Shown here one piece after another: positions 5,686-28,858 of a stretch of 64,000 bases of DNA. A model generated the notes under the pieces. That model saw nothing but the letters and a program-made list of their open reading frames with translations. It had not been told where the DNA came from and ran no database searches. The stretch is from Sinorhizobium sojae CCBAU 05684 (GTDB lineage Bacteria > Pseudomonadota > Alphaproteobacteria > Rhizobiales > Rhizobiaceae). The stretch lies in assembly GCF_002288525.1 (NCBI RefSeq), contig NZ_CP023069.1, positions 1-64,000 on the forward strand, read 5' to 3'. The number at the start of each line of letters is the position of its first letter. Position 1 is the stretch's first letter. The position numbers were made by a program, and so were the translations under genes.

Positions 5686-6352
5686 AACCATCTTACCGCG
5701 AGCGTCTAGCGGTACTCGAAGGGGCAGCGGGCCGGGCAGACTGATCTGTACGTGGGCAGATCAGGTGGCGCGGGAGCATGATCCTCGAACGGGTTCCTCA
5801 TCCAATCGAATACGTTCAGGACGAGCGCATCGAGGTCGGCCGCGCCCGGCGTAACCGCGCCGGTGAGCGCGGCGATCACCGTTGCCTAGAGAAAGGCAGT
5901 CAGCGCGAGCATCGCCGTGTCGCGCGTCGGCATCGAGGGCGACTCAGGCACCTAGCCCACGACTCGCGACGACGAGTTCAGCCGCCAGAGCCAACCTTGC
6001 GGGGCTCTGCGGAAAGCGCGCCTCGGATGAGCCTCTGCGGCAAATGGAGGTCTCACCTGGCGCCGGACTTCGACCCGTGCACGCTTGGGTTCCGAAAACT
6101 CAGTGATCTTATCTGCACGACAAATCAGTTCGACGTGTGGCAAGCCGAGGATGCTCCCGTCAGCATCACGGCTGAAACAAAGAGGCAAAAAGTAGCGTCT
6201 ATGGCGACGAAGATCGCTTGCTTGGGCTGGGCAGTTGCGTCAACGTTCGGGCTGCTTTACCCGGAGCGGAGAAGCGTCTATCTGTGCGCGCGTATACGAA
6301 GCGAGCCTCGCCCGCCCTGTGGCGGTACGGCAAATGATCGAAGGAAGGCATG
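5686..6352. other. No recognisable gene; includes leader of the cold shock gene
   Basis: Open frames here are short and lack family motifs. The last part before 6353 should hold the promoter and 5' leader of the cold shock gene. The ribosome binding site AAGGAAGG lies just before the start. Nothing else could be supported. Confidence 0.45.
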
Positions 6353-6559
6353 ATGGCGACCGGAACGGTAAAATGGTTCAACGCGACGAAGGGCTTTGGT
6401 TTTATTCAGCCGGACGACGGGAGCGCCGATGTCTTCGTCCACATTTCAGCGGTGGAGCGGGCTGGCCTGCGGGAGCTGAAGGATGGGCAGAAGATCAGTT
6501 ACGAGCTGGTAAAGGATCGTAAGTCCGGCAAGATGTCGGCTGACAATTTGCAGGCCTAG
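6353..6559 (+). CDS. cspA: Cold shock domain protein (CspA family)
   Basis: This 68-residue protein is a single cold shock domain that binds single-stranded RNA or DNA and acts as an RNA chaperone. It starts [18 protein letters not shown], containing RNP1 (KGFGFI), followed by RNP2-like DVFVHISAV. Two ATG codons are adjacent (6350 and 6353). The second has better spacing from the AAGGAAGG ribosome binding site and gives the family's usual MATGTVKWF start. It is intact amid decayed DNA and stands alone. Confidence 0.95.
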
Positions 6560-6706
6560 GCCGCCCCTTCCTCACAACGCGAGCTTTCTGGAATAGCCCG
6601 GGGGTTGCTCGGTCTTTTTCCATTTGGAAGCATGCGGCGACCGGAAACAGTGCTGCACCCAGCTTTCGACGCCGCGTGAACACTCTTGAATTCATGAACC
6701 AGCCTC

Positions 6707-7624
6707 TCAAGAGCGAACCAGCCCGATGCGGCTCGCCTCGTCCAGTAGTGCTCGGACGGAAGACGGTTGCCATTTGCGGCCGCCACGTGGCGGTCGCTCC
6801 TGCATCTGGTCCAACTGGGCGGCAATGTCGCGCAGCGACAGATCGGGATCGGCGATGGCGATCCCGGCAACCAGCCGCATCAGATGATCCTCGGGCGGCC
6901 GGCGCGGCGATCGGGCAAGCAGTTCCGGTTCCGCGAGCTTTTCGCGCACCAGCCGGTGGACCGCCCGCCGCAACCGTTCGACGGTCCAGTCGTGCCCCCC
7001 GCGATTGAGGATCCGCACGACATTGTCCCAACTGTGTCGCGGGCGCAGCCGCCGGACTGTCGGCAGCCAGGTCTGCGCTGACACAATCAGTTCATCGAGG
7101 TAGGCCCGCTCGCGCGCCGCTGAGACCGCGCGGATGGCTTCCGGCCGGCGTTCTCGAAGCCCGGGATTGCCGGCAAGCCGGCCGCGCGCCTTGGCGGCCT
7201 GCATACCGGACTTGGTCCGCTCCGCGATCAGCGCACGCTCGAGCTGGGCGACGGCGCCGAGCACCTGCAAGGAAAACATTCCCTGCGGCGTCGAGGTATC
7301 GATCGGATCACGCAGCGAGCGGAAATGCACGCCGCGCTTCTCGAGGTCTTCGATGACGTCGAGCAGGTGGCTGACCGATCGGGCCAGACGGTCGAGGCGA
7401 ACGACGACGAGGACATCGCCCGTGGCAAGGTCTTTAAGAAGCTTCGCAAGCACCGGCCGCGCGCGTGATGCGCCGGATCCGTGCTCTTGGTGGATGCGGT
7501 GGCAACCGGCCGCCCGCAATTCGTCGACCTGAGCGTCGTTGAGCTGATCCTCGGTCGAAACACGGGCGTATCCGATCAGCCTTTGCTGCAGGGAAGGAGA
7601 ATTGAGGTTTGCAGCCGTTGCCAT
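6707..7624 (-). CDS. Serine recombinase (resolvase/invertase family) with long C-terminal extension
   Basis: The N-terminal catalytic domain begins LIGYARVSTEDQLNDAQ, with the nucleophilic serine in ARVS. It continues with VVVRLDRLARS and AQLERALIAERT, the hallmark segments of resolvases. At 305 residues it is longer than a typical 180-200-residue resolvase. The extra C-terminal half (WDNVVRILNRGGHDW, DIAAQLDQM) looks like added DNA-binding helices. It is probably a site-specific recombinase from a lost mobile element, since no matching transposase is adjacent. The ATG at 7624 is supported by conservation from residue 15 onward. Confidence 0.85.
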   Translation of the reverse strand: MATAANLNSPSLQQRLIGYARVSTEDQLNDAQVDELRAAGCHRIHQEHGSGASRARPVLAKLLKDLATGDVLVVVRLDRLARSVSHLLDVIEDLEKRGVHFRSLRDPIDTSTPQGMFSLQVLGAVAQLERALIAERTKSGMQAAKARGRLAGNPGLRERRPEAIRAVSAARERAYLDELIVSAQTWLPTVRRLRPRHSWDNVVRILNRGGHDWTVERLRRAVHRLVREKLAEPELLARSPRRPPEDHLMRLVAGIAIADPDLSLRDIAAQLDQMQERPPRGGRKWQPSSVRALLDEASRIGLVRS

Positions 7625-8634
7625 CGGATTTTTCGGCCGTTTCGGGGCGGTTTGTACAAATGAAACATGTGTGAGAAAACGTTCCTTTGCAAGCGTGTTT
7701 TATGGTCTGAATGGAAGCCCGTCAGATTCAAAATACCGCAGTGGACGAGTGTCGGGTCATGAACATAGGCTAACGCGCGCCAGTGGGCTTCTGTGGCGGA
7801 AATGCCGCGAGTTCGGTTGTTTTGAAGGCAGCACGTATCGCGCTGGTGTTTCAGGCGGCCTTTGAGATGGAAAAATGACTGAGGAAAGCTCTGCCGCCTA
7901 CCGCTCGGACGAGGGCCCTTCCATTCGATCCGGCAAATGAGTCTGCCGAACTGGGTTGAAAAGCGGCTGAAAAGCCCGGTTTCCTAGGCAAATCCACTGA
8001 TCCAGGACGACTGACAATGGTCAACCAGACCGCCAAATCCATCGCTATCGATACTTGATCCCTATCGATAGTGATTGCGCGCGGAAATCGGCGTCTGAAT
8101 GACGGAAAGATGATTACTGTTAGCTTCCGTTTGAGTGATTTCTGGAGTTAATTCACATGGTTAACTCTTCGTGAACTCGACCTTGCGCTGGCACTTGTCC
8201 TAGGTCGGAACCGCGTGGAGAGTTGGCCGTCTACTGGCCGCCTCTATCCTGCGCCAGCCCGGCGTAACAACCGCGGCACATCTCCCCGATCAAATCTCGG
8301 CGATGCTGAAGCGGCGTCTCGTCGGCCGACGCACCCCTTCTAAGCCGCTTGCATTACGACCGCGACAGCCGGTTGCTCGCCATCGCGCAGGGGCTGGTCG
8401 CGGCCGCCGAGCTTGGCGAAGGAACACGACCGCAGGCGCGGTCGCGGTAGATGATGGAGCGCAAGCTCGCCGGCCGGCGCGCCTCCTCACGACTGGGGCG
8501 ATGATCGAACTCGTCATCGCCAAACCGTTCGCCGGCGCCGGCATGGTCGCAACAACCCTCGAGGTGACGCCGCAGAAGGCTCAGCTATTAACCCGGTCGG
8601 GTTGGTTCGTTCAAAACCTGGGCCAGAATATGCG
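7625..8634. other. About 1 kb without a supportable gene
   Basis: Overlapping short frames occur on both strands. A GC-rich stretch near 8290-8460 can be read as a helix-rich fragment (HYDRDSRLLAIAQGLVAA) ending at a stop, perhaps a gene remnant that I cannot name. No RNA gene or repeat was recognised. Confidence 0.4.
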
Positions 8635-14478: not shown

Positions 14479-15090
14479 TCAGTGCTGCTGGTTTTGGCTC
14501 TTCGCAAATCCAGCTTTTCCAAGTGTCCGACGGCGGGCAATTTTAGCGACACGGTCTTGAATGATATCAACGCTTAAATCTTCTGGGTCGAAGCGGCCAC
14601 CATACCAACGCACGAACTCTCGATGCTGCGCATGCCGTGGCTTCGCCATGACGTTCAGGAATTCCTCGAACCCCGAGGTGCTGCCAACATCTTCCGGCGG
14701 CGCTCTGCGCTCACCATCGATGAAGCGCGGATATTCGATGCTGGGGTTTCCATCCTCCACTGCCTCGACCGTGATAGTGTGCCGCCAGTTATCACCAAAG
14801 TCATAGGTGTAGCTAAAGGTCGCGATCCCACGCTCGATGAGTGCCGCTATGCGGACGTTGCGAGCAGCAAAGGTTTTGCGTTCGTAGAGGTCTTCTGGAT
14901 CCGGCACATCGTAACATCGCCCACCAGCCTCGAACTCGAACAGATGATAATCCTCGAACAGCATCACGGCCTGAATGACATCGTGGAGCCCCTTCAAGCT
15001 CATCGTGAGTGGAACCTCGACCCTGCGCCAGATCAAAGGCTCGATATCGTCGAGTTGGATATGTAGCCTGGCGATGCGATCGACGGTCAT
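14479..15090 (-). CDS. Plasmid pRiA4b ORF-3-like protein
   Basis: This 203-residue protein has the pRiA4b ORF-3 signature: LHIQLDDIEPLIWRRVEVP near the N-terminus, then FSYTYDFGDNWRHTI in the centre. The molecular function of the family is unknown; it is frequent on plasmids and near IS66 elements. The ATG at 15090 is preferred to an upstream in-frame ATG (15132) because it overlaps the tnpC stop as ATGA, indicating coupling. Confidence 0.85.
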   Translation of the reverse strand: MTVDRIARLHIQLDDIEPLIWRRVEVPLTMSLKGLHDVIQAVMLFEDYHLFEFEAGGRCYDVPDPEDLYERKTFAARNVRIAALIERGIATFSYTYDFGDNWRHTITVEAVEDGNPSIEYPRFIDGERRAPPEDVGSTSGFEEFLNVMAKPRHAQHREFVRWYGGRFDPEDLSVDIIQDRVAKIARRRTLGKAGFAKSQNQQH

Positions 15091-16724
15091 GATGCCAAAG
15101 CCATCATAGGCCGCGGACCTGTCCAATTCCACGGCAGCAGCTCTGCAAGCTTTGTTGTCGGCGTGTCAGCGATACGCGCGAGAACGTCGGCAAGCCAAGC
15201 CTGCGGATCGACGTCGTTGAGCTTGGCCGTCATGATCATCGTCGCCATGAAGGCGGCGCGATCAGCACCACGATCAGAACCCGCAAACAGCCACGACTTC
15301 CTGCCGAGAGCGAAGCCGCGCAGAGCGCGTTCGGCGGCATTGTTGGTCAGGCAAATCCGACCGTCGCCCAGGAAGGACGTAAAGCCCTCCCAGCGCTTTA
15401 GCATGTAGTCGATCGGCTCGGCGACCGGAGAGCTGCGCGACAGCTTTGTCCGCTCGGCCCGCATCCAGGCCTCAAGCTCTTCGACAAGACGACGGCTGTC
15501 CCGCTGGCGTCGCGCCAGTCTTTCACTTGCAGCGAGACGATTGATGTCACGCTCGATATCGAACAGGGCATCGATCCGTTTCACGGCCTCGAGCGCCACC
15601 GGCGAGATCGGCGTGGCGTTCTTTCCCCGTTTGGCGTTGGTGGCGATGTCGGCAAGCACGAAGAACTTGCGACGCGAATGCGACCAGCACAATGCCTGGG
15701 TCAGCGGACCAGAATCGCGGTCCATTTTGAAGAGCGGGTTGTAGCCGCCATAGGCGTCGGCCTGCAGAATGCCGGTGAAGGTCTTTAGATGGCGCTCGGG
15801 ATGTTCCTGCCGCCGATCGCGGGAGGCATAGTAGAGGGCGGCTGGCGGCGACGTTCCGCTGAACGGCCGATCGTCCCTGACATAGGTCCAAATCCGCCCG
15901 GTATCGGTCTTGCCCTTCGCCAGGATCGGCACGGTCGTGTCATCGCCATGTAGACGCTCGGCGGTCAGCACATGCGCCTCGATCAATCCGTGCAAGGGCT
16001 TCAAGACCGCGGCGCAAGCCCCCACCTGGTCGGCAAGCGTCGAGAGGCTGAGGTCGACACCCTCGCGGGCATAGCGTTCACTTTGCCGGTTCAGCGGTTG
16101 ATGCTGGCCGAACTTCTCAAACAGGATCATCGCCAGCAGGTTTGGCCCTGCAAAACCGCGCGGCGTCACATGGAAAGGGGCCGGTGGCTGGGCGATCTTC
16201 TCGCATTCGCGGCAGGAGAACTTCTCGCGCACCGTCTGGATGACCTTCCACTGGCGCGGGATCACTTCCAGCGTCTCGGCAATGTCCTCGCCCAGTTTCG
16301 CCAGCTTGGCCGAGCCGCAGCATGGGCAGCTTGTTGGCGGAGCAATGACGACGCGTTCGCGCGGCAGGTGCTCCGGAAACGGCTTGCGCGATGGACGCTT
16401 GCGCTCGAAGGCCCGAACCGTCGAGGATCGTGCCGCCAGTTCAGCGGCCAATTCGTCCTGGCTGGCGTCCGCCTCCAACTCTTCGAGCTGCAATTCCATC
16501 TGCTCAAGAAGCCGCGCCTTGCGCTCCGAGCGGCTGCCATGAATGTCGCGCTTGAGCTTCTCGATCTCCAGCCTCAACCTGGCAATCAGCGCATCCGAAT
16601 GCGAGTTCACTGCCTGGGCTCGGGCAGCAACGGCCTCGGCTTCACGGCGTGCCGCGCGCTCGGCGAGGATCATCGCATGCGCGCTGGCAAGGTCGTCGGG
16701 AAGCTGATCGGCCGCATCGGTCAT
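15087..16724 (-). CDS. IS66 transposase TnpC
   Basis: This 545-residue DDE transposase has the usual IS66 layout: an N-terminal leucine-rich coiled coil (IARLRLEIEKLKRDIHG), a zinc-finger-like CPCCGSAKLAKLGED with a second pair in CRECEKI, then the catalytic core (HGDDTTVPIL, LQADAYGGYNPL) and the terminal NNAAERALRGFALGRKSW. Length is normal and the frame intact. Confidence 0.93.
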   Translation of the reverse strand: MTDAADQLPDDLASAHAMILAERAARREAEAVAARAQAVNSHSDALIARLRLEIEKLKRDIHGSRSERKARLLEQMELQLEELEADASQDELAAELAARSSTVRAFERKRPSRKPFPEHLPRERVVIAPPTSCPCCGSAKLAKLGEDIAETLEVIPRQWKVIQTVREKFSCRECEKIAQPPAPFHVTPRGFAGPNLLAMILFEKFGQHQPLNRQSERYAREGVDLSLSTLADQVGACAAVLKPLHGLIEAHVLTAERLHGDDTTVPILAKGKTDTGRIWTYVRDDRPFSGTSPPAALYYASRDRRQEHPERHLKTFTGILQADAYGGYNPLFKMDRDSGPLTQALCWSHSRRKFFVLADIATNAKRGKNATPISPVALEAVKRIDALFDIERDINRLAASERLARRQRDSRRLVEELEAWMRAERTKLSRSSPVAEPIDYMLKRWEGFTSFLGDGRICLTNNAAERALRGFALGRKSWLFAGSDRGADRAAFMATMIMTAKLNDVDPQAWLADVLARIADTPTTKLAELLPWNWTGPRPMMALAS

Positions 16725-16769
16725 GGCGAGATGGAATCATATTCGCTCCGACCTTTCCAGCCATTTCCA

Positions 16770-17117
16770 CTATCCAGCAGAGCTCGGACGCCAGGTTTTT
16801 TGCGGCATTCGCCAGTCGATTCCTTCGAGCAGATAGCCGAGCTGCGCCGGCGTGATCACCACCGTGCCGTCGGCCGCTGACGGCCAGATAAAGCGGCCGC
16901 GCTCAAGCTTCTTCGTGAACAGGCAGGCACCCTGGCCGTCGTGCCAGATCACCTTGATTAGGCCGCCCTTCCTGCCGCGGAAGCAGAACAAATGGCCGCT
17001 ATGCGGATCACGCTTCAGTGTCTCCTGCACCATCAGCGACAGGCCAGGAAATCCCCTCCGCATGTCCGTATAGCCCGTCGCCAGCCAGACCTTTACGCCG
17101 CTCGGAACCGGGATCAT
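16770..17117 (-). CDS. IS66 Orf2, TnpB
   Basis: This 115-residue protein matches the IS66 Orf2 family, with GVKVWLATGYTDMRRGFPGL and LFCFRGRKGGLIKVIWHDG. It is needed for transposition, but its activity is not defined. It overlaps tnpA by 4 bases, and tnpC begins 45 bases downstream. Confidence 0.93.
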   Translation of the reverse strand: MIPVPSGVKVWLATGYTDMRRGFPGLSLMVQETLKRDPHSGHLFCFRGRKGGLIKVIWHDGQGACLFTKKLERGRFIWPSAADGTVVITPAQLGYLLEGIDWRMPQKTWRPSSAG

Positions 17118-17506
17118 CGCCGTTCCACGACATCGAGGATGCGGCCCAGAGCTTCGGTGTCAACATCACTCTCCACTCGAATGCGCCGGCCGCGGCCAAG
17201 CTCGATCGTCACGATACTTGGCTTCTTGCGCGCCCGTGGTGCCGGTGTCGTCTCCAAAGGATCAGGCGCTGGCAACGCCGCGACGACCTCAATCGGAATG
17301 AATGGAGGCACGGACGGCGCTGACATTTGGCAGAGCTCTTTGCGCCACCGGAATAGCTGACTGACATGAATCCCGGCCGAGCGCGCCACATCCGAAACAA
17401 CGGTTCCAGGCTCTAACGCCGCCGCTACCAGCCGTTCTTTCTCTTCGCGAGACCAATGCCGGCGACGCTCGACCGACGTGATCACCTCAATATGCTGCTT
17501 CGTCAT
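17114..17506 (-). CDS. IS66 Orf1, TnpA
   Basis: This 130-residue protein carries the helix-turn-helix of IS66 Orf1: HWSREEKERLVAAALEPG, then VARSAGIHVSQLFRWRKEL. The ATG at 17506 (MTKQHIEVITS) is preferred to one 48 bases upstream because homologues start near the VERRRHWS stretch. The basic C-terminus precedes the ATGA overlap with tnpB. Confidence 0.88.
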   Translation of the reverse strand: MTKQHIEVITSVERRRHWSREEKERLVAAALEPGTVVSDVARSAGIHVSQLFRWRKELCQMSAPSVPPFIPIEVVAALPAPDPLETTPAPRARKKPSIVTIELGRGRRIRVESDVDTEALGRILDVVERR

Positions 17507-17560
17507 AGGACTACTCCCAGTGCTACCACCAGGACTTCCAATGTTCGGCATCACATCACA

Positions 17561-17914
17561 AGACGGCCGTCACCGTGGGGATACCGCAAGGAAGCCTATC
17601 GGGCCCATGAAATGATCGCCTGAGTTCAATCCCAGAGAACCGGGATTGGTAACGGCAGTCGATGATGTGTAACGATCGAGCCAATGGTGAGGCCAACCCG
17701 TCTGATTCAATGCGCTTCAAACGCGCGCCAGCTTGATCAGGGTCCTCATCGGCGGATTTCCATCAGGGCCAGCGGTCAAACTTCATACCGCACAAACAGG
17801 CCGGACATATGAAAGCAACCGATCAAACCACCCGACAAAAAGCCCTTGCCATAGGGGGCGTCCACATATGAATCACGCAACCGACATACAACAACAGATT
17901 TACGGCTCACGCCT
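17561..17914. other. Gap between IS66 and the biosynthetic operon
   Basis: No gene is supported. It should contain the IS66 end and the 3' end of the operon transcript. I found no clear terminator. Confidence 0.4.
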
Positions 17915-19153
17915 TTAGTCCAAAATCAGGCGCGCACTTGCGTGCGCGGCTTTCGCACGTGCGTTAGCCGTTGTGGCTGTTTGTCCCACAGCTAGAATTT
18001 CCGCAACGTGGTCACCATTACTGGTGGGAGGTCGCACATGTGCGCCAAACTTCGCGATTGGCGCGACCGATACAATTCCCGGCATGGCCAGCAATTGCGC
18101 AGTGTTTTTAATCCCACGAAAAATCCCGGGGCGTTCCGTCCAGATGAAATGAATGGCCGCCCCCTTGCTCTCGGCACAACGCCATTCGAGAGTTTTGCCA
18201 AGTGCAGCATCCAGCACTGCCTGCACCGCACTTAATCCAGTTGCCATCTCGATGAGGTGGCTGCCGATCTTTCCTCCCGCAAGTCGCGGATTGATCTCCA
18301 TAATCCTGATATCTTCGCCATCCACGCGACATTCGGTATGCACAGCTCCATGGCAGATATCGAGGGCGTTGAGAACGCGGCACGTAGCTGCGGCCAGAGC
18401 GGCAGCTTCGGGCCCAACATAGGGAAAGCTATGGCCCGCCTCGATGAAATGGTTGCGTTTGAGCCCAGTCATCTCTTTGGTAGTCACTCCTATGACTTGG
18501 CAGGGTCCCGCACAAAACTGGATCGTCTCGACACTAAACTCTGTTCCAGCAATATATGCTTCCATTAAGATCCCTGGAGGTGAACCTTGGCCCGCGGAGT
18601 TGCGCGTGAAGCTTCGCGCGGTCGCCATATAGTCTGTGAGTTGGCTCTCGTTGTGAATAAGCCTAACCCCAACCCCGTCGTTCTCTTCTTGGGGTTTGAC
18701 AACCAAAGGGTAATTCAGTTGCTGCGCCGCCGCCACGGCCTCGTCTGGGTTAAGTGCCAGAAAAAATGGAACATTGTGCTCGGGGGCACGCTCTGCCAAT
18801 GCCAGTCGCATCAGGTGTTTGTTTCTTGCGCGAAGTGCAGCCTCATAGCCTAGACCAGGGAGGGACATTTCCTGCGCAGCAAGTGCAGCCTGGGGAACAT
18901 ACATGTCGGCCGTGGTCGTAACAGCTGCTATAGAGGAATTTAGACCTCTTTGACGCACGATCCTGACCACTTCGGCATGCTTGTTGGTGTCACAGAAGAA
19001 AATATTATCTGCAGAGGACAATACGTCCGCACCGTAACGGCCTCTGTCCCGCGTGAGCAGTGTCACATTGAGGCCTTCGGCATGGGCCAATTGCTGTGCC
19101 CGACTACCAGCTCCCGTGGTGCTCGCTTCAACGAATATGATCTCGCGCTTCAT
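17915..19153 (-). CDS. ATP-grasp ligase (carboxylate-amine ligase family)
   Basis: This 412-residue ATP-grasp enzyme should activate a carboxylate with ATP and join it to an amine. The N-terminal domain (residues 1-110) has Rossmann-like segments (IIFVEASTTGAGSRAQQLA). The nucleotide-binding lobes show YPLVVKPQEENDGVGV (near 150) and ILMEAYIAGTEFSVETI (near 200). The metal-binding motif is IMEINPRLAGGKIG (near 290). It resembles stand-alone peptide or amino-acid ligases rather than purine enzymes. It is the last gene of a tight operon, starting 18 bases after the protease stop. The substrate is unknown; a peptide or an amino acid released by its neighbours is an inference. Confidence 0.85.
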   Translation of the reverse strand: MKREIIFVEASTTGAGSRAQQLAHAEGLNVTLLTRDRGRYGADVLSSADNIFFCDTNKHAEVVRIVRQRGLNSSIAAVTTTADMYVPQAALAAQEMSLPGLGYEAALRARNKHLMRLALAERAPEHNVPFFLALNPDEAVAAAQQLNYPLVVKPQEENDGVGVRLIHNESQLTDYMATARSFTRNSAGQGSPPGILMEAYIAGTEFSVETIQFCAGPCQVIGVTTKEMTGLKRNHFIEAGHSFPYVGPEAAALAAATCRVLNALDICHGAVHTECRVDGEDIRIMEINPRLAGGKIGSHLIEMATGLSAVQAVLDAALGKTLEWRCAESKGAAIHFIWTERPGIFRGIKNTAQLLAMPGIVSVAPIAKFGAHVRPPTSNGDHVAEILAVGQTATTANARAKAAHASARLILD

Positions 19154-19171
19154 GGTGACTGCTGATGCCTA

Positions 19172-20788
19172 TTACACCATTTCGTGTGGTAAATCAGGGC
19201 AAACAAAGAAGGTGTGGTACTGCAGCGCTAGACATTTGGGAGAAAGGACCGCAGCGACGAGCGTTAACCGGCCGAGGAAACTCAGTGCCGTATAGGGGAT
19301 ATGAACTTTCCCGCCATTTTGCGGCCAAGGTATCGGGGCGAAGCTTGGCATGCGATGAAACAGCAGAAGCCCCTGCGACCTCTGCGGGGGAGTGGGTATC
19401 GAAATCGCGACGGACGAAGCTTCGGGTTGGACAGTCAAAATGGTCAACTGCGGTCCATCGCCGATCCGTTCCTGCGTGGTGCCACAATGGTCGCATTCTT
19501 CGCGATGGACCGTAGGCAAGTATGAGGCGAACGGCTCATAACGTGTCCAGTTAGAAACACCTCCGCATCGCGCGCAGGTGTGGGTGGTAGGGGATAATCT
19601 GCGACAGAAGGTTGCGTAGCGCGTCTGGATCCATCCAGTCGTCTGGATAGATTGAGCGAGAGCTGTGATTAATGCAAGCTGCAGAGCGTGTCGTTGATGT
19701 TCGAAAAATTGACCGAGCTGCGCTACTTCTTCCTCACCAAGCCCCGTGATGTGCCAAGCATGATCCGTACTTCCGGCAGATTCTGTTAGGTCTTTGACGT
19801 TCGCGTGAATTTCAGCTAGGGCGGAACTTTCCGGTATCCAGCGCGTCAGAGCAGCGCTTAAAAGTTCGAGCCCAAGATTGTCCTCGAGCGCACGCCTTAA
19901 GGAAGAAGGCAAAGGCAGTTGCGGCGGCCTCGATTGCAGAGGACCGATCGAAGGCCGTATATTGACAGGGCTCAAGCGATGGAGGGGATCGCCAAGCAAT
20001 TGAAATGCCACTCCTCTTTCGAAGCGATTCGACTCAGCATTGAGACGGTTTACGATCTCACCAAGACTATTTCCTTGTAGAAGTGCTTGTGCAAAAACCG
20101 CCGCGTAATGCGGCGAAGTATGCAAGTTGCGGAAGCTGCCTATCACCGCAGAGCCGAGACTGAAGAGAAGTGCCGCCAGCGAATACGATTCGGGAACACA
20201 TGAATCGCCCAGTTTTAGAGATGAGCAGCAATTCAGAAAAATCACGTCTCCCAACTTGAAAGATGGAAGGATGATGGGGTCAGTAAGAAAAGCCGTATTG
20301 AATGTGCTGAACCACCTTGAATCGAGCCGTATGCAATATTCGCTACCGTGGCCTGTTATCACAACGCCTGATGGTGCGGGTAGGTTTGGGTCCAATAGAC
20401 GTCCAATAACGAAATTCGAATCAATGACCTGCCTTCCCGCCGCATTATGTTCGGTCGCAGGAAACCCGTCGATAATCTCGTAGACTCGATTGCCATCTAA
20501 TGGCCTGCGCGGGCGCATTTGGGGTGATACATTGGTGGCGAGGGAGAAACCGCAGCCTCGTTCCGGCTCTTGTATCGCCCACTGCGCCAAGGCGCGAGAA
20601 ACGCGCACGGTGAGTTGCCGCCAGGTGCCACAGAAGGTGAGCGACGATGCCCGACATGAAGCCAAGAAAGCGTCAAGTTGCGCCTCATCTAGAATTGCGA
20701 TTAATCTCCGGCTTGGAAATTGGCGCTTGGCGAACGCGCCGCAATTTGGCGCCACCAACACGATATCCTCTTCCATTTGAAACCTCAA
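19172..20788 (-). CDS. Caspase-like (CHAT/C25-type) cysteine protease with C-terminal zinc ribbon
   Basis: This 538-residue protein has a caspase-fold signature: the histidine in GVVITGHGSEYC (near residue 145) and the cysteine in VIFLNCCSSLKLG (near 187). The usual closing segment VAFQLLGDPLHRLSP is near 265. The region after about residue 300 is unassigned until a zinc ribbon-like pair, CARCGG and CDHCGTT, near 420-450. The likely role is proteolysis, for instance leader removal. It sits between the arginase-family and ATP-grasp genes with an 18-base gap on each side. Neither the fold nor the activity can be proved from motifs alone. Confidence 0.75.
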   Translation of the reverse strand: MRFQMEEDIVLVAPNCGAFAKRQFPSRRLIAILDEAQLDAFLASCRASSLTFCGTWRQLTVRVSRALAQWAIQEPERGCGFSLATNVSPQMRPRRPLDGNRVYEIIDGFPATEHNAAGRQVIDSNFVIGRLLDPNLPAPSGVVITGHGSEYCIRLDSRWFSTFNTAFLTDPIILPSFKLGDVIFLNCCSSLKLGDSCVPESYSLAALLFSLGSAVIGSFRNLHTSPHYAAVFAQALLQGNSLGEIVNRLNAESNRFERGVAFQLLGDPLHRLSPVNIRPSIGPLQSRPPQLPLPSSLRRALEDNLGLELLSAALTRWIPESSALAEIHANVKDLTESAGSTDHAWHITGLGEEEVAQLGQFFEHQRHALQLALITALAQSIQTTGWIQTRYATFCRRLSPTTHTCARCGGVSNWTRYEPFASYLPTVHREECDHCGTTQERIGDGPQLTILTVQPEASSVAISIPTPPQRSQGLLLFHRMPSFAPIPWPQNGGKVHIPYTALSFLGRLTLVAAVLSPKCLALQYHTFFVCPDLPHEMV

Positions 20789-20806
20789 ATGATTGTTGAA
20801 GCGAAA

Positions 20807-21754
20807 CTAGGTCCCACTTGATGTTTGTCGGACAACACCCGCCATGAAGTTCATGATGATCTGCGCTGCAAGTCGCGAGGTCATATCATCTCGGTCCAAA
20901 GGCGGACTCACTTCAGTGATGTCGAGAGCGAGCGTTGGTGCGTTAACCGCGATCTCGAACACCGCATCCAAAACCTCATGGGCAAGAAGACCACCGCAAT
21001 TGGGAACGCTCGTACCCGGCGCATAGGCCTGGTCGATGCCATCAATGTCGACGGAGATGTATACTCCGGCCCCATCAGCGGTCCCATGCTCGATTGCGGT
21101 TCTCAGAGCGACAGTCCAACCTACTCGACGTATGTCGTAAGGTGTCATCACCAGGACCCCGGCTGCTTCGGCCTCGCGCATGTATGCCTCTGAATAAATC
21201 GCAGCGTTGATTCCCATCTGGACAACCTTGCGATAGTCAATCACGTCCGACAGCGTCCGCATCCAATGCCCGGAATGCTCCTTGCCTGGTATTGGTTCGC
21301 GCGAATCGAAATGGGCGTCAAAAACAATCAGCCCCATTGGCGCCCCAGAAAGCCTATCACGAACACCCCGTATCGCTGGGTCGGTAATAGAGTGGTCACC
21401 ACCCAAGACTATTGGCAATAATCTGCGCGGCAGTGCGGCAATGGCAGCTCGAATGTTTGAGTATGACTGCTCGAGAGAGTGCAGCGCATCGACCGATCCA
21501 CACTCTACGAAGGACGTCTTGTCCAACGACACCCGCTTGTCGACGCAATATGCGCTTAACGTATTGAGTGCCGAAAGAATTTTCTCGGGACCGAAACGAC
21601 AACCAGGGCGATGACTGACCGCAAAGTCGAACGGCACGCTAACGAATCCAAAAGCTGGAGAATCGTGTGGGGCGCTCTGCGCGGTAACCCAACAATCCCG
21701 GATCCACCGCACAGTCGGATCGTTTACGATTGGTACAGAAGATGTAACTTGCAC
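20807..21754 (-). CDS. Arginase/agmatinase/ureohydrolase-family enzyme
   Basis: This 315-residue protein has all the binuclear manganese ligands of the ureohydrolase family: GGDHSIT, then FDAHFDSRE, then SVDIDGIDQAYAPG, and a late acidic DITEVSPPLDRD. Such enzymes hydrolyse guanidino groups to amine plus urea (arginine to ornithine, agmatine to putrescine). The ATG directly follows the radical SAM stop with no gap, so the two are coupled. Within a peptide-modifying cluster it could deguanidinate peptidyl arginine, as known peptide arginases do. It could also make a small precursor. The substrate is not deducible. Confidence 0.9.
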   Translation of the reverse strand: MQVTSSVPIVNDPTVRWIRDCWVTAQSAPHDSPAFGFVSVPFDFAVSHRPGCRFGPEKILSALNTLSAYCVDKRVSLDKTSFVECGSVDALHSLEQSYSNIRAAIAALPRRLLPIVLGGDHSITDPAIRGVRDRLSGAPMGLIVFDAHFDSREPIPGKEHSGHWMRTLSDVIDYRKVVQMGINAAIYSEAYMREAEAAGVLVMTPYDIRRVGWTVALRTAIEHGTADGAGVYISVDIDGIDQAYAPGTSVPNCGGLLAHEVLDAVFEIAVNAPTLALDITEVSPPLDRDDMTSRLAAQIIMNFMAGVVRQTSSGT

Positions 21755-22951
21755 TTAGACGGACCCCGCGCTGGGAACGACGGTCGGGGTTTCCTCACCC
21801 TGATGCATGGCATGCAGGCCACGCTCCACCACTTCGTCCGCTCCGTGCCTGCCCTCGAATCGACGATAAAGGTGAAGTTTACGCTCCATCCCAGATGACT
21901 GTACTGAGTCCCAAACACGTTCCCGCAGCAGGCAAAATCCATCTTGAACCGGGGTACGAACATGTCTGGCAAACTTTGAGTTCCAGATTGTTTCCAAGCT
22001 GTCGCAGCGAACGTGTCCCAAGAAACGGCCAAGGCCGTTGCAGTCGTAAACCTCGCCAAATAAATTCACGAATAGCCCGACGTTGACTTGTCTACAGCGG
22101 TAGCCGCCTGACATTGGGCGTGAGGGTTTATAGGTTAAGCCGAACTCTTGCTCGTCTACCTTGCGTACAGCCTCGAGCATATTGTTAGAGCGCTCGCGCT
22201 CTAAAATCATGGCAGCCCTATCGGCGCGGCCTTCCGGTATAAGGGTCACAATATAGTTGTGCACATTATTGATTCGGCACCACCGATGGAGTTCGACGAC
22301 CTCTTCGAAATCTTTCGACTCGTTAAACTGTGGCGTTACAACCATATCAACTGCTACACGCGTTGGTATCGATTGGTTGAAGCCCTTTTCGAGAAGGTAA
22401 TGAAGGCCTGCGTTGGCTTTCTCGGCATAGCCGGCCAAGCCAACCATTTTATCTTGGATATGCGTATCGCTTGAGTTGTGCTTGATAAAAACAGTGGCCC
22501 CGAGCTGAAAAAGCCGGTCAGCTGCCGAACGGTCAAGATGGTAGCCGCTCGTGAATATGACGGGCGTCATCCCATGACCATGAACACCAGCAATTATGTC
22601 CCAAAATCCCACATCGATCATAGGTTCACCAGCACCGGGAAATTCGACAGTGGTGGCACCGAGGTTGCGGGCCTGCTCGATCAAATCGAGGCGCTCCGCA
22701 GTTGTCAGTTCAACACGGTTGGGTACGGAATTGTATCTATCGGGCGTCCGGTCGCAATAAAAGCAATTGAGCTTGCACTCGCCGGTCAAGTCCAGGTCGA
22801 GGTGCAACATACGATTATTGGAACGTGCGTCGTCAACGATGTCCTTGGAATAGTCAGTGCCGGCAGCCCAAAGGTTCTCGATGCGCTCTCGCGCAGCAAC
22901 AATATGAGGTAGATCAGCGTAAGCCGTGCTCGCTTTACCAATGGACATCAT
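21755..22951 (-). CDS. Radical SAM enzyme with SPASM/twitch-like C-terminus
   Basis: This 398-residue protein carries the radical SAM CX3CX2C cluster motif in TGECKLNCFYCDR (near residue 60) and the SAM-binding EFPGAGEPMI. The C-terminal part has four cysteines, beginning with the auxiliary-cluster spacing CX12GX4C (C-RQVNV to VYDC), then GHVRCDSLETIWNS and GFCLL. That is the pattern of peptide-modifying SPASM/twitch enzymes. The start (22951, or a second ATG at 22948) overlaps the stop of the upstream small reading frame as ATGA and follows a G-rich Shine-Dalgarno. It probably modifies a peptide, though the reaction is unknown. Confidence 0.88.
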   Translation of the reverse strand: MMSIGKASTAYADLPHIVAARERIENLWAAGTDYSKDIVDDARSNNRMLHLDLDLTGECKLNCFYCDRTPDRYNSVPNRVELTTAERLDLIEQARNLGATTVEFPGAGEPMIDVGFWDIIAGVHGHGMTPVIFTSGYHLDRSAADRLFQLGATVFIKHNSSDTHIQDKMVGLAGYAEKANAGLHYLLEKGFNQSIPTRVAVDMVVTPQFNESKDFEEVVELHRWCRINNVHNYIVTLIPEGRADRAAMILERERSNNMLEAVRKVDEQEFGLTYKPSRPMSGGYRCRQVNVGLFVNLFGEVYDCNGLGRFLGHVRCDSLETIWNSKFARHVRTPVQDGFCLLRERVWDSVQSSGMERKLHLYRRFEGRHGADEVVERGLHAMHQGEETPTVVPSAGSV

Positions 22952-23088
22952 TTCCCCCCGTTTTGAAAAGACATAGCGTCACAAATCGCCTCGACTACCC
23001 GGCGAGAGCCTGCGCCAACTCGTGTGGAGATGCCGTGAATGCATGGGTCCTCGACACAATCTGCAAGGACCCAATACTTGAACCAACT
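22948..23088 (-). other. Open extension of the small peptide gene beyond an amber codon
   Basis: After the TAG at 23089-23091 the same frame stays open for 46 codons (SWFKYWVLADCVEDPCIHG, then ISTRVGAGSRRVVEAICDAM, then SFQNGGK). It ends at a TGA that overlaps the radical SAM ATG as ATGA. It has no ATG, GTG or TTG start ahead of the conserved-looking part. It has three cysteines and several arginines. It may be the former C-terminal (core) half of the precursor, lost through one nonsense change, or may be reached by amber read-through. Confidence 0.5.
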
Positions 23089-23241
23089 CTAAACCTGTAC
23101 GGTGGCGAGCAGCTTGGAGACCTTCTCAAGTTTCTCAGAAATCAGCGCGGTATGGACAATCTTCTGGGCCTCGCTAAGTTCCCTAATTGCTAGCTTGAGG
23201 GCCTCGGCCTCGTCGCCTTTGCCATACTTTAGATCGCTCAT
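23089..23241 (-). CDS. Small helical peptide, candidate precursor or leader of the radical SAM cluster
   Basis: This 50-residue peptide (MSDLKYGKGDEAEALKLAIR, then ELSEAQKIVHTALISEKLEK, then VSKLLATVQV) is rich in Ala, Glu, Leu and Lys and should form an amphipathic helix, as leader peptides do. The ribosome binding site AGGAGG lies 7 bases before the ATG and is the best in the operon. It is the first gene of the operon, 137 bases before the radical SAM start. Its amber stop is followed by an open in-frame extension, so the original product may have been 97 residues. Confidence 0.65.
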   Translation of the reverse strand: MSDLKYGKGDEAEALKLAIRELSEAQKIVHTALISEKLEKVSKLLATVQV

Positions 23242-23486
23242 GGAAATTCCTCCTGGTTAGAGTGTTGCAATCAAAGATCGTGATAGGCATCCAATTGCGC
23301 GGCATCACCCACCGTATATGCCGGCAAGAAGCCAACTGCCAACCACGCTAAAAATAAGCACCAAATGTAGGAAAAATTGCAATCCTCAAATTTGACGGGT
23401 ATACGCTGTTACTGCGCTATTTTGGGTAGCATCCCTTTTTTTTTGGGGGTTACAAACTTATAGGCGGAAACCTTCCGCCTGACGGG
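23242..23486. promoter_or_regulatory. Leader/promoter region of the peptide-radical SAM operon
   Basis: This AT-rich stretch lies upstream of the small peptide gene and should contain the operon promoter. No convincing -35/-10 pair was found. It includes a run of ten T residues near 23430-23445 and a perfect hairpin, GGCGGAA with TTCCGCC (23463-23479), next to the tniA remnant. The hairpin has no T tract on either exit side, so I do not call it a terminator. Confidence 0.4.
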
Positions 23487-24022: not shown

Positions 24023-24177
24023 ATCTGAGCACGTGGCCGTCGTTTGCGAGCAGCCTCGGATGTTGGCGAGCACGTTGGCAAAGAGCGTGAGCAGGGCACG
24101 TTCTCCATTGTCAGATAATCTGAGCAGAAAATGCCGATGTTGGCGAGCACGAGCCGTTATGTTGGCAAGCGGCTACA
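24023..24177 (-). repeat. Right terminal repeat of the transposon
   Basis: This is the inverted counterpart of 9373-9527, ending in the terminus whose complement reads TGTAGCCGCTTGCC. It carries the same CTCGCCAACAT and CTCAGATTA motifs. Target duplication CCTATC follows at 24178-24183. Confidence 0.88.
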
Positions 24178-24183
24178 CCTATC
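24178..24183. repeat. Right copy of the 6-bp target-site duplication
   Basis: CCTATC directly after the right terminus equals 9367-9372. It lies within the NACHT NTPase reading frame. Confidence 0.9.
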
Positions 24184-27100
24184 GAGGGCTTGCAACGCAT
24201 CCTCGTTACCAAGCGCCGCCAGCCCGTTTAGATAGTAGCCGCGTCTGGATGTCGCCTTGTCGTCAATGCCGGGCGAGTAGGCGTCTTCATGGACGGGGTC
24301 ATTGCTTGGTGGCCAAACAAGATAAGCGGCCTTGATGAGATGACACAGTGTTTGAGCATCGGCATCAAGTGCGTCCCGCTCCTCGGCGCGCTCTTCGGCA
24401 CGTGAGTTGGACAACTCTTCGCGCCCCATGTAGCGCTTGAACAGGCTTGCGCTGGACGGGCTCCATAGTGCTCCGAAGGTCGCGATCCATGTAGACCAGG
24501 CAGCTGCCGAATCAATAGCGAACAAGGCATCAAGCCAGAGCCACGCTTCGGCGAACCTAAACTCTATCACATGGGCTGCGAATTGCTGGCGGAGAATCGG
24601 TGATAGTTGTGAGGCCGAGACCGCATGACTCCGGGCAATTATCGTGAGAGCCATTTCCAAGTCGCGACGATTCTCGGGGATCCCTGCGGTTTGAAGCAGT
24701 TGGAACAGTGGTGCCGCTGTAAGCTCACGGATTGCAGAGGTGGAATAGGCTATGCGACTGAACCCGTCCGAGGAAAACTTCTCTTCACTGCTCGAGGTAA
24801 TGTCCTGCGTGAGAACGGTCGTCGCCACGGTCACGAAAATTCCGGGCTTCAACGTGATAAGAGCCGGCATCCAGTCCGGAAAGCCGTTCATGTTAGAAAA
24901 GCCGTAGGTGAAGGCCCGTTCTATCAAGTCATCGGACAGGTTCGCCAGTTCGCTCAGCGATTGCAGGGCAAGGCCGGTCAATCCGATCATGGCCTGATAG
25001 TCGCTTTGTGCGGGGTAGGTAATCCCGTTTTCTCGCCAGTACCTTTTGAAGCCGGAGGCGAACAATCCCGCAATCAGCTGGCCATGGCGCTCGCGCATGC
25101 GTTCTATGACTGCTGGACCAAGGTCATTTGGACTCTTGTTTACCGCCCAAGCCAGATAACCAGGTCTGCGCCCCTGGGACAAACCACGGAAATCCCTGAG
25201 AAACGTTGCTCCGTTACGGAGCTTCCAGCATGCATCGATCACTGAATCGACACTAGCGTGAAACCTGTGTTTGATCTGGTACCAGTCCTTATGACGAAAC
25301 TGATGCTTCAGCCGTCTTATCGGCGCTAGGTGGCCATAGGCGCGCTTTAACTCGCTGCTGCCATGGGTCCGCGCAAGGTTTCTAAGAATGGCGTTTGCGT
25401 GTTTGCGTTCTTCAGCGTCCCGGATCTCGTCAAACACGAATTGGGCGCAGGTGAAATACAGATCCCGATCCCTTTCAGTCTGCTCCTCGGCCATGAGGGC
25501 GCCAAGGCGCTCGATATCTTTCGAATTGAATACCTCGACTGCCTTATCGCTTCGATCGATCTTGAGCGGGCCGACTGCCTGGCGCGCCACGTACCATTCA
25601 CTCTGCATATTTTCGAACAAAGCGAGGCGCATCAAGATTAGGTCGATCTTCAGGTCGTTCAACGGACGGATGGTCGTCGCGAGCTTGTCGAAGCTGGTCT
25701 CGCGCAGCGAATAGCTCTGCCTTCCGTTAAGACCGAAGACAAATTCGAGTGCTTCGAGCCGTACCGCCTTTGGCAACACTTCGCCACCGTGCTGCAGCAG
25801 CCTGTCCAATGCCTGGCAAATGGGGGCGCCAAGCATCCTGAACCTCGGCTGGATCGTCGGCATCATATCCCGGTCACTCTTTCGCGGAGCGCGCGCGAAC
25901 CGAAGGAAAATCTGAAGCCAGTTCCCCAATTGATCCAATGATAGTTCGGCAACCAGCCCCTCCAGCAACATTGCGGTGGCTGATGCATAATTTTTGGCTT
26001 CCCGGCGGAAGCGATCCACGAGAGCGATTGCATCCAGGAGAGAAACACCGGCGGGCACGACGTATCGCACAGCACTGGCCACGAACAAGTTCCACGACGG
26101 CGCGCTTTGCGTATCCTCGTGCTTGGGAGCGGTCGACAGAAGCGCAGCCGCAAGTACATCATGGGCAAATGAAAAATCGTTCAAATCCGCCAGTGCAAGA
26201 CAAGCCTCCGCCCTGACGCGAAGACCTTCGGTCTGATCGCAGGCGATTGTCCGCAGGTCCGCGGCCATTGACGTCATCTGGCCAAATCTGATCATCTCGA
26301 CGAGTAACTCACGGACCTCAGGTGAAGTTGCGATCGCTAGCTGCTCTCCGATTGCCGGTGCCAGATCGGGAGTAACAAACTCCCGCACATCCTCCTGGTA
26401 AAACCATTCGCCTCGATAAAGCCGCTCCCGGTATGCAGCGACGTGTGCAGCAATGGCACGTGACTTCTCGTCAACCGTGAGCCGTGTCGGATCGCCGGTC
26501 TCAATAAGAAGCGACGGTCGGATCCTGGTCACAATCCTCCTCGCGATCGGATCGATCGTCGCCAACCATCCCAAGACGTGCTCGGTCGATTGAGGGACTT
26601 CGGTACATCCCAAGCCTTCTGCAAGGAGAGGCTTAACTACGTCGAGCGATCCGGCATTTTGGCCGATCGCCCGGCGGAAAAAGCAAGCAGCGAGGTAGTC
26701 ACGCAACTCCCGATGGGCAAACCTCACTCGTCCGGAAATGGACGGCTGAAACAACCCATACGAAAGAAGCTGGCGCACATCCATCTCCGTCCAGCGATCG
26801 GCGTCGCTCGATAATGCCGAGAGCGCGTGGATCGCCATCGGTTTGTCCGGCTCGGACGTAAAATCCTGAACGTCCGATAGGACGGAGATCGCGGCAAGCT
26901 TTTCACATGCCTGCCGTCCCAGCAGGGGGTCAAGGTTCGATCGACGCTCCTGTCCGCTCTCGGTCCTCAGTCTGAATCTGACGATATCTTCGTATACCTG
27001 CAGCCTTGACGAAAAGATGCTGGGCGGCTCCTTGCCCTCCCCAACTGCTTCTAACCACAGATCGAGGAGAAGCTGCACGTCCAGTGGCTGCGACACGAGA

Positions 27101-27711
27101 TTGGCGGCTTTAGCTCTGTCGATTGCTGCCGCGAACTGGTCGGGATCTACGCCACGGTGCTTGGCGATTTTCCTCACATCAGGCTTGCGAAGAGGTAGCA
27201 GGCGAAGCGTCTTTACTTTAATCTGTGCCTCTTGACTCGGATCCGAGACGCGAAAGCCCTTGATTGCCGTCTCGATCGCCCGCAGATCGCCATCACCCTG
27301 CCACTCGCTGGCCCTAGAGCTGATGATAACCCTCAGTTCCTTTCCTGCGGAACCTACCTCGCGTGAGAGACGCGCCAAAGCATCCGCCAAAGCGCTGGTA
27401 TTGCGAGCATCAGGCAAGCGCGCTTCGTCAAGTGCATCAAGAAGGGCGACTGCCGGGCCGCGTTTCACCTTCCACCTCGCGAAGGCCGTCGGAGATGCTT
27501 CGTCGTGCGGTGAGAACGAATCCTCCGCGGACAGGCGGCAAAGTGCCTCAATCCTAAAGACGAAGGCAGGGGTGCCAGCGGAACGTAGCTCCTTTGCCAA
27601 TTCCAGCAACTCTCGCGTCTTGCCGGCACCAGCAGAACCGAGGACTATCGCGCAGTCCAACGTCGCGACTTCGTGCCATGACTGGCCCTCGTTCCCACGT
27701 GAAGGGTTTGC
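24178..27711 (-). pseudogene. NACHT-type NTPase, central part of a gene split by a transposon and an IS
   Basis: This 1178-codon segment encodes a NACHT/STAND-like NTPase. Walker A is IVLGSAGAGKTRELLELAKE, Walker B is VALLDALDEARLPD, and RVIISSRASEW follows as a sensor segment. RFAHRELRDYLAACFFRRAI matches the typical end of NACHT modules. About 700 residues of helical, HEAT-like sequence follow. The 5' side is cut by an IS630-type element at 27714 and the 3' side by the 14.8-kb transposon. Joined with 28859-28948 and 8635-9366 it gives one frame of 1451 residues. The open frame continues antisense into the IS630 element, but that part is not native. Confidence 0.85.
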
Positions 27712-27713
27712 TA

Positions 27714-28858
27714 GTGGTATCCGCCTAACATAAGAGTCCGTATGGGATTCCCTTTGGCGAGTGCGTATGCGAGTGTGGCGCATGCGCACAGGAATAGCCT
27801 TCACCGTTTCGCCGACCGATCGCCAACGCCTGAGAGCCCTCATCAGTGATCGCAATGCGCCGCAGAAGCACGTCTGGCGCGCCGAGATCATCCTGCTGAG
27901 TGCCGATGGCGTCGGCACCGTCGAGATCATGCGACAGACCGGCAAGTCGAAGACCTGCGTGTGGCGCTGGCAGGAGCGCTTCGCCACGGAAGGCTTCGAG
28001 GGTCTCTTGCGCGACAAGACGCGCCCCTCGCGCATTGCGCCGCTCGGGCCGGAGATCGGCGAGCAGGTGGTGGCGCTTTCGCTTGCCGACCCGCCGGGCG
28101 AGACGACGCACTGGACTGCCGACATGATGGCGGCCGAGGTGGGCGTCAGCGCCAGCGCGGTGCGCCGCATCTGGAAGGCGCACGGTCTCCAGCCCCACCG
28201 CTGGCGGGCCTTCAAGCTCTCCAACGACCCGCAGTTCGTCGCCAAGCTCAAAGACGTTGTCGGCCTCTACGTCGACCCGCCGGCCCATGCCATCGTGCTG
28301 TCGGTCGACGAGAAGAGCCAGATCCAGGCGCTCGACCGCACCCAGCCCGGCCTGCCCCTGAAGAAGGGCCGGCTCGGCACCATGACCCACGACTACAAGC
28401 GGCATGGCACGACCACGTTGTTTGCCGCCCTCAACGTGCTCGACGGCACCGTCATCGGCAGGAACATGCAGCGTCACAGGCATCAGGAGTTCATCCGTTT
28501 TCTCAACGCCATCAACGCCCAAGTGCCGGCCGACAAGGCGATCCACGTCATCCTCGACAACTATGCCGCCCACAAGCATCCCAAGGTGCGCGCCTGGCTC
28601 GACCGCCATCAGCGCTTTACCTTCCACTTCACGCCGACGTCCTGCTCGTGGCTCAACGCCGTCGAGGGCTTCTTCGCCAAACTGTCGAAGCGTCGCCTCA
28701 AGCGCGGCGTCTTTCATTCGGTCGTTGACCTCCAGGCCGCCATCAACCGCTTCCTTACAGAGCACAACCAACAACCCAAGCCCTTCACCTGGACCGCCGA
28801 TCCCGACAAAATCATCGCTGCCGTCAAACGGGGGCACCAAGTGTTAGATTCCATCCAC
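27714..28858 (+). mobile_element. IS630-family element, type A copy 1
   Basis: This 1145-bp element is flanked by TA duplications (27712-27713 and 28859-28860). Imperfect inverted ends begin GTGGTATCCGCCTAACA and GTGGATGGAATCTAACA. It interrupts the NTPase gene after its first 30 codons. A second copy lies at 29865-32171 in inverse orientation. Confidence 0.92.

Follow-up and report, generated by a model that had tools for sequence, protein, structure and literature searches.

The window analyzed here, the first 64 kb of the 410,255-base contig C3 (NZ_CP023069.1) in the 6.09-Mb genome of Sinorhizobium sojae CCBAU 05684, contains a compact set of five minus-strand genes coding for a 50-residue peptide, a radical S-adenosylmethionine (SAM) protein, a PF00491 ureohydrolase, a predicted caspase-clan protease and an ATP-grasp ligase (Table 1). 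A preliminary description, made from the letters alone, had proposed these genes as a new pathway for peptide tailoring or for a ribosomally synthesized and post-translationally modified peptide (RiPP). All five open reading frames were located at the coordinates claimed there (17915-23241), as was the AGGAGG ahead of the peptide gene. The gaps or overlaps after the first gene had been given as 0-18 bases. The stop codon of the radical SAM gene does directly abut the GTG of the ureohydrolase gene, but ATG 20776 is a more probable start for the protease than TTG 20788, since the alignment with its relatives begins near that ATG; the gap before it would therefore be 30 bases instead of 18. Three public annotations place the ureohydrolase start at codons further downstream. 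The upstream GTG was retained because the N-terminal motif VxDxxVxWI is invariant in 8/8 aligned proteins. No significant Pfam match was obtained for the peptide or for the protease-like protein and, among the matches listed, no NCBIfam model scored above its own cut-off for any of the five proteins.

Table 1. Features of the five-gene cassette (positions in the window)
Feature	Positions	Strand	Basis
Mobile unit	17869..23461	-	99.2% with S. meliloti RU11/001 plasmid pSmeRU11d (blastn), other flanks there (annotation)
AGGAGG ribosome-binding site of peptide gene	23249..23254	-	sequence
50-residue peptide, C-terminus VQV, single Arg = residue 20	23089..23241	-	open reading frame and alignment
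Hairpin directly 3' of peptide stop codon, possible attenuator	23040..23077	-	shuffle test, moderate evidence here
Radical SAM protein, twitch-type auxiliary motif, 398 aa	21755..22951	-	PF04055 and PF13186 above cut-offs; alignment n=8
CX3CX2C motif, residues 59-66	22754..22777	-	sequence and alignment n=8
CX12GX4C auxiliary motif, residues 286-304	22040..22096	-	sequence and alignment n=8
Third auxiliary Cys340	21932-21934	-	alignment n=8
PF00491 ureohydrolase (arginase/agmatinase family), 315 aa, GTG start	20807..21754	-	Pfam E 2.7e-62
Predicted caspase-clan (gingipain/CHAT-like) cysteine protease, C-terminal zinc-ribbon motif, 534 aa	19172..20776	-	
Zinc-ribbon motif CxRCG...ECxxCGTT (Cys401, 404, 428, 431)	19484..19576	-	invariant 4/4 (alignment)
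ATP-grasp ligase, L-amino acid ligase type, 412 aa	17915..19153	-	LAL_C2 and ATP-grasp_4 above cut-offs

In a collection of 72,556 plasmid records, all five genes were found in the same nine records, every one from Sinorhizobium, with identities of at least 98% for the peptide, 95% for the radical SAM protein and the ureohydrolase, 85% for the protease and 81% for the ATP-grasp ligase. CP035039 holds a second place for each of the five genes; in CP050560 the matches to the radical SAM protein, the protease and the ATP-grasp ligase are split into two to three pieces, so that some frames may be broken there. Whole genomes with all five genes in unchanged order were those of S. glycinis (L008), Hoeflea poritis (L009), Bradyrhizobium lablabi (L010; protease gene broken by unread bases) and another Bradyrhizobium (L030); this order is kept throughout loci L005-L010 and L030. 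The Hoeflea cassette and the two from Bradyrhizobium are 33-73% identical to that of the window; for H. poritis, tblastn gave 73% for the radical SAM protein, 64% for the ureohydrolase, 57% for the ATP-grasp ligase and 33% for the protease. The set is thus co-conserved across genera, against the possibility raised at the outset that these genes might be linked nowhere else. The other possibility, that the set belongs to a known pathway, found no support either: no described pathway was recognized, and no description of the five-gene set was found in titles, abstract starts and opened texts, subscription papers lying outside this scope.

The genome sets searched for the cassette genes are samples. 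The radical SAM gene was detected in 2/397 genomes of the order (its own included), 1/385 of the class (its own), 1/8 of the genus Hoeflea, 3/45 of Azospirillum and 3/242 of Bradyrhizobium (one of them truncated); the protease occurred in 1/398 genomes of the phylum and the peptide in 1/397 of the order, in each case its own. One contig scan with narrow patterns gave 6 loci from 158 candidate stretches, and viral contigs yielded no homologues.

The stretch shared with S. meliloti RU11 (Table 1) has a counterpart in strain ml21 (17892-23304, 95.3%, blastn). Since the genes outside it differ in both strains from those of the window, and since its G+C content (0.539) is lower than that of the window (0.595), the cassette of about 5.6 kb is a mobile unit. 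Between the window and ml21, the ratio of nonsynonymous to synonymous substitution rates (dN/dS) ranged from 0.07 to 0.31, with 0.31 for the protease, 0.30 for the ATP-grasp ligase, 0.24 for the ureohydrolase, 0.14 for the radical SAM protein and the lowest value, 0.07, for the peptide, which indicates that the peptide is under purifying selection. Because these ratios are low and the window's peptide still shares 53% identity with that of Hoeflea and 56% with that of Bradyrhizobium, the comparison argues that the five-gene set is more than a chance association.

Public annotation of S. meliloti RU11 and S. fredii CCBAU 45436 lists the peptide only as a hypothetical protein, WP_014857766.1. 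Alignment of four sequences from three lineages required gaps at columns 2-3 only and left 21 of the 50 positions invariant, including Arg20, Glu36-Lys37-Leu38 and the terminal VQV. Residues 2-9 are variable, the segment EKL...LL..VQV is kept, and VQV forms the C-terminus in the intact copies aligned. The peptide of the window contains one arginine, Arg20 in mid-sequence, and neither cysteine nor tryptophan; a second arginine lies near residue 40 in the Hoeflea and Bradyrhizobium peptides, and cysteine is absent from all four.

Directly after the peptide stop codon, a hairpin was found whose stability was equaled in 16/500 shuffles for the window, 51/500 for ml21 and 54/500 for Hoeflea. In B. 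lablabi, where it is very strong and has a 13-bp stem and a T tail, 0/500 shuffles were as stable, and 0/500 likewise reached the stability of the hairpin in a decayed Bradyrhizobium copy (genome G526, L031:10074-11170). This copy, a truncated radical SAM gene with a frame-broken peptide gene, adjoins a methyltransferase-domain gene and a non-ribosomal peptide synthetase (NRPS) gene, and no ureohydrolase, protease or ATP-grasp gene was found in the 18 kb read around it. Over the whole intergenic stretch downstream of the peptide gene, folding was not significant in the window (z -0.69), ml21 (-0.97) or B. lablabi (-1.42), and modest in Hoeflea (-2.10), two intragenic control stretches giving -0.74 and 0.81. 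Scans for sigma-70 promoters and terminators stayed at chance level. The hairpin may set the ratio of peptide to enzymes.

As had been claimed, the radical SAM protein carries CX3CX2C and CX12GX4C motifs. Both are invariant in 8/8 aligned proteins, together with Cys340, and they place it in the SPASM/twitch group; with three conserved auxiliary cysteines we take it to be of the twitch type and not a full SPASM protein. When the five cassette proteins were submitted to PADLOC, only weak matches between the radical SAM protein and viperins were returned, and this candidate anti-phage assignment was rejected. The ureohydrolase falls in PF00491, the family of the enteropeptin arginase KgrD; this was its only Pfam match, PF12640 of the OspR-type peptide arginases being absent. 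The motifs GGDHS, DAHFD and DID, which presumably supply the metal ligands, are all present and invariant in 8/8 aligned proteins. A guanidino or related group is the expected substrate. The solved relatives are varied (agmatinase-annotated proteins, guanidinobutyrase, formimidoylglutamase and proclavaminate amidinohydrolase), the best of them reaching 126 bits, and do not point to one substrate.

The last gene does code for an ATP-grasp ligase: in addition to ATP-grasp domains, it matched LAL_C2 (PF18603) with 54.6 bits against a cut-off of 29.4, the mark of the L-amino acid ligase (LAL) family. LAL-type matches dominate in Pfam and among solved structures, where the relatives include BacD and, ranking first, the L-amino acid ligase BL00235. 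The enzyme is nearest to the ligases of free amino acids.

The protease had been called caspase-like, with a zinc ribbon. The four-cysteine motif of the ribbon was confirmed, being invariant in the four aligned proteins, whereas the caspase likeness is supported by a structure model and not by sequence profiles. Pfam CHAT (PF12770), Peptidase_C25 and related families did not match at E up to 10 in 3/3 members, and a PDB profile search gave no support; hhalign against 20 CHAT domains gave P 0.047 (controls 0.14-0.5), with both protease motifs in register only in a relaxed alignment. The predicted structure of the N-terminal domain adopts a caspase-clan (clan CD) fold whose closest counterparts are gingipains, separase and CHAT proteases. 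One of five N-terminal models was confident (76.1 versus 48.9-58.2), and the full-length model, with a mean predicted local distance difference test (pLDDT) score of 59, was inconclusive on the fold. The protein contains the motifs TGHG and N(C/S)C(S/A)S, and its His143 and Cys184, invariant in the alignment, are assumed to form the catalytic dyad on the pattern of the clan CD motif. Gingipains and separase cut after basic residues.

Apart from the cassette, the radical SAM and ureohydrolase genes exist as a pair of their own. At E up to 1e-60, the ureohydrolase was found in one further plasmid record only, p3 of Azospirillum lipoferum; beyond the nine Sinorhizobium records, this is also the one place in the plasmid collection with a radical SAM match above 60%. 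Four such loci were analyzed, in A. lipoferum, A. melinis, A. sp. B21 and A. picis (tblastn identities 61.6-63.3% for the radical SAM protein and 48.6-50.2% for the ureohydrolase). In each, an exporter gene of 319-322 codons precedes the radical SAM gene and then the ureohydrolase gene; the exporter is of the DMT family by annotation in L004 and matched PF00892 (EamA) by test in L011, those of L012 and L013 being matched by eye. Neither peptide, protease nor ATP-grasp genes adjoin the pair in any of the four loci. Profile searches in three whole Azospirillum genomes and in the A. lipoferum plasmid record, the rest of that genome lying outside the search, revealed no protease homologue and no credible peptide homologue (best E 0.04). 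ATP-grasp relatives at E up to 1e-8 amounted there to two weaker ones, on other contigs of A. melinis (143.9 and 43.4 bits). A hidden Azospirillum peptide was looked for and rejected, the short open reading frames common to the four loci being, by eye, pieces of or antisense to larger genes; none clearly matched the peptide of the window (best E 0.80). As the pair stands alone in Azospirillum, without a peptide, a small-molecule product is suggested for it.

More distant radical SAM relatives were found as well. In genome G049 (L033), a 32% relative adjoins a methyltransferase gene and lies near phosphopantetheinyl transferase and NRPS genes. On plasmids, relatives of 25-33% identity occur in Paenibacillus, next to a second radical SAM gene; in Streptomyces, within a stretch that looks biosynthetic, where a further radical SAM gene, a P450 gene and a gene resembling aminoacyl-tRNA ligases are annotated and arginase and ATP-grasp genes are not; and in Paraburkholderia, in a stretch without annotation.

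Our tentatively preferred reading, to which we would give somewhat short of an even chance, is that the mobile cassette attaches a non-standard amino acid, derived from arginine, to a carrier peptide of 50 residues made on the ribosome. It is preferred because Azospirillum keeps only the pair and because the single arginine of the window's peptide sits in mid-sequence; being internal, this residue leaves a C-terminal core without a substrate for the ureohydrolase. The radical SAM protein and then the ureohydrolase would act on an arginine-type small molecule to give an ornithine-like amino acid and urea. The LAL-type ligase would link this amino acid to the peptide through an amide bond, the likeliest site being the C-terminal VQV, to which only its invariance points. 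Finally, the caspase-clan protease would cut the conjugate and so free the product or recycle the peptide. The full scheme, a carrier-peptide pathway independent of tRNA in which the ligase adds a residue derived from arginine at the C-terminus of a recyclable peptide, the pair remodels this residue and the protease releases it, is unlikely to hold in every part.

A precedent for such a carrier is TglA, a 50-residue peptide that is built upon and recycled (PMC9016710). Like TglA (3-thiaglutamate) and AmmA (ammosamides), the cassette combines a ribosomal peptide with a working C-terminal end, tailoring enzymes and a protease nearby; unlike them, it has a LAL-type ATP-grasp enzyme, a radical SAM protein and a ureohydrolase where those systems have tRNA-dependent peptide aminoacyl-tRNA ligases (PEARLs) and other proteases. 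A search with the PEARL family PF04738 (truncated lantibiotic dehydratase) matched none of the five proteins in Pfam. According to PMC11117183, PEARLs have been proposed as descendants of ATP-grasp enzymes.

Several points weigh against the carrier-peptide reading. Arg20, invariant in the four peptides, could itself be the substrate, and the Azospirillum enzymes may have changed theirs. Relatives of the protease fold such as gingipains and separase cut at basic sites, and the carrier ends in valine. The cassette contains no exporter or immunity gene. In PMC9016710, the known carrier-peptide pathways rely on PEARLs where the cassette has a LAL-type ligase, and RiPP recognition elements (RREs) are present in several tgl enzymes; no RRE-type Pfam domain matched the five cassette proteins at E up to 1, a search that diverged RREs may escape.

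Modification of the encoded Arg20 is a serious rival, somewhat unlikely as we judge it. The radical SAM protein would modify the peptide around Arg20, the PF00491 enzyme would hydrolyze the modified residue to ornithine, a reaction carried out by KgrD in enteropeptins, the protease would cut at a basic site and the ATP-grasp enzyme would close a ring or add a residue. The first step of the enteropeptin pathway is a radical SAM reaction. The likeness to that pathway (kgr) lies in a modification step, then a PF00491 arginase, and a small precursor peptide; KgrD acts only once the neighborhood of the arginine has been modified (PMC12703449). A predicted protease fold nearest to gingipains and the invariance of Arg20 fit such a course. 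However, the enteropeptin modification joins a cysteine to the adjacent arginine to form a thiomorpholine, and no cysteine is present here; the cassette also adds a LAL-type ligase and a caspase-clan protease and has no methyltransferase. Furthermore, Arg20 lies in mid-peptide, whereas the invariant end is VQV, and the enzyme pair exists without any peptide in Azospirillum. With the landornamide-type arginases the ureohydrolase shares the expected chemistry, guanidino hydrolysis in a natural-product pathway, but OspR belongs to PF12640 and not to PF00491. Graspetide loci likewise combine a small peptide with an ATP-grasp enzyme and sometimes a SPASM radical SAM enzyme (survey PMC8939145), whereas the ATP-grasp enzyme here is of the LAL type; the words arginase and caspase are absent from the main text of that survey, and neither caspase nor gingipain is mentioned in the main text of a review on the leader proteases of RiPPs (PMC10885120). 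The earlier proposal of a new RiPP-type or peptide-tailoring pathway is upheld as to a peptide-linked biosynthetic cassette conserved across genera, with a ribosomal precursor gene kept beside modifying enzymes. Modification of the encoded peptide by the radical SAM protein and the arginase is not established; it is held back by the peptide-free pair, by PF00491 in place of PF12640, by a single mid-peptide arginine without cysteine or tryptophan and by the lack of an RRE match.

Attachment could also take place at the other end of the peptide, although we regard this as distinctly unlikely. As in pheganomycin biosynthesis, the pair would make a free unusual amino acid, the protease would cut after Arg20 or Lys37, both invariant in the four peptides, and the ATP-grasp enzyme would add the amino acid to the new N-terminus. 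The ATP-grasp ligase PGM1 links a guanidino-containing non-proteinogenic amino acid to the N-terminus of a small core peptide (PMC8359417 and PMC8939145). However, the polyketide synthase, aminotransferase and amidinotransferase genes of pheganomycin-type loci, as named in PMC8939145, are absent from the cassette, and the conserved end here is the C-terminus. A further, quite improbable explanation makes the peptide a regulator or partner of the enzymes, for example an activator, and a small dipeptide the product of the ATP-grasp enzyme. The amino acid ligases among the solved relatives are consistent with it, as are 6 of the 40 listed plasmid relatives, annotated in or across PLP (pyridoxal phosphate)-dependent, cysteine-synthase or lyase genes, but the dedicated protease and the strictly kept peptide C-terminus would be left unexplained. 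An anti-phage or other conflict system with the protease as effector is highly improbable: the cassette is a mobile unit on plasmids and its neighbor at 24157-28251 (minus strand) shows similarity to HyoA, a NACHT antiphage protein, at 448.8 bits, short of the cut-off of 1200, but annotation of the S. meliloti loci L005 and L006 has no gene that large next to the cassette, and the two-gene form in Azospirillum looks biosynthetic.

Over 18.5 kb, the window is 99.98% identical to plasmid pSF45436a of S. fredii CCBAU 45436 (blastn). The HyoA-like gene adjoins the cassette in S. fredii-type plasmids. Just downstream of the cassette, at 14479-17554 on the minus strand, lie an IS66-type insertion sequence and a pRiA4b ORF-3-like gene, according to the annotation of the matching S. 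fredii record. In H. poritis, the region upstream of the cassette (L009:858-5400 and 6149-7911) codes for a short protein of 685 aa resembling class-I tRNA synthetases, a methyltransferase, a protein of 529 aa with no match in Pfam, a class-V aminotransferase and a GGACT protein, possibly another biosynthetic locus.

The five genes form a self-contained unit that has a clear candidate peptide and is simple to express and test, and the occurrence of the pair without the peptide makes the chemistry of the pair separable from that of the peptide. The cassette would bring a caspase-clan protease into peptide natural-product biosynthesis and would show whether ATP-grasp ligases can serve carrier-peptide pathways without tRNA, in a gene set that travels among soil and root-nodule bacteria.

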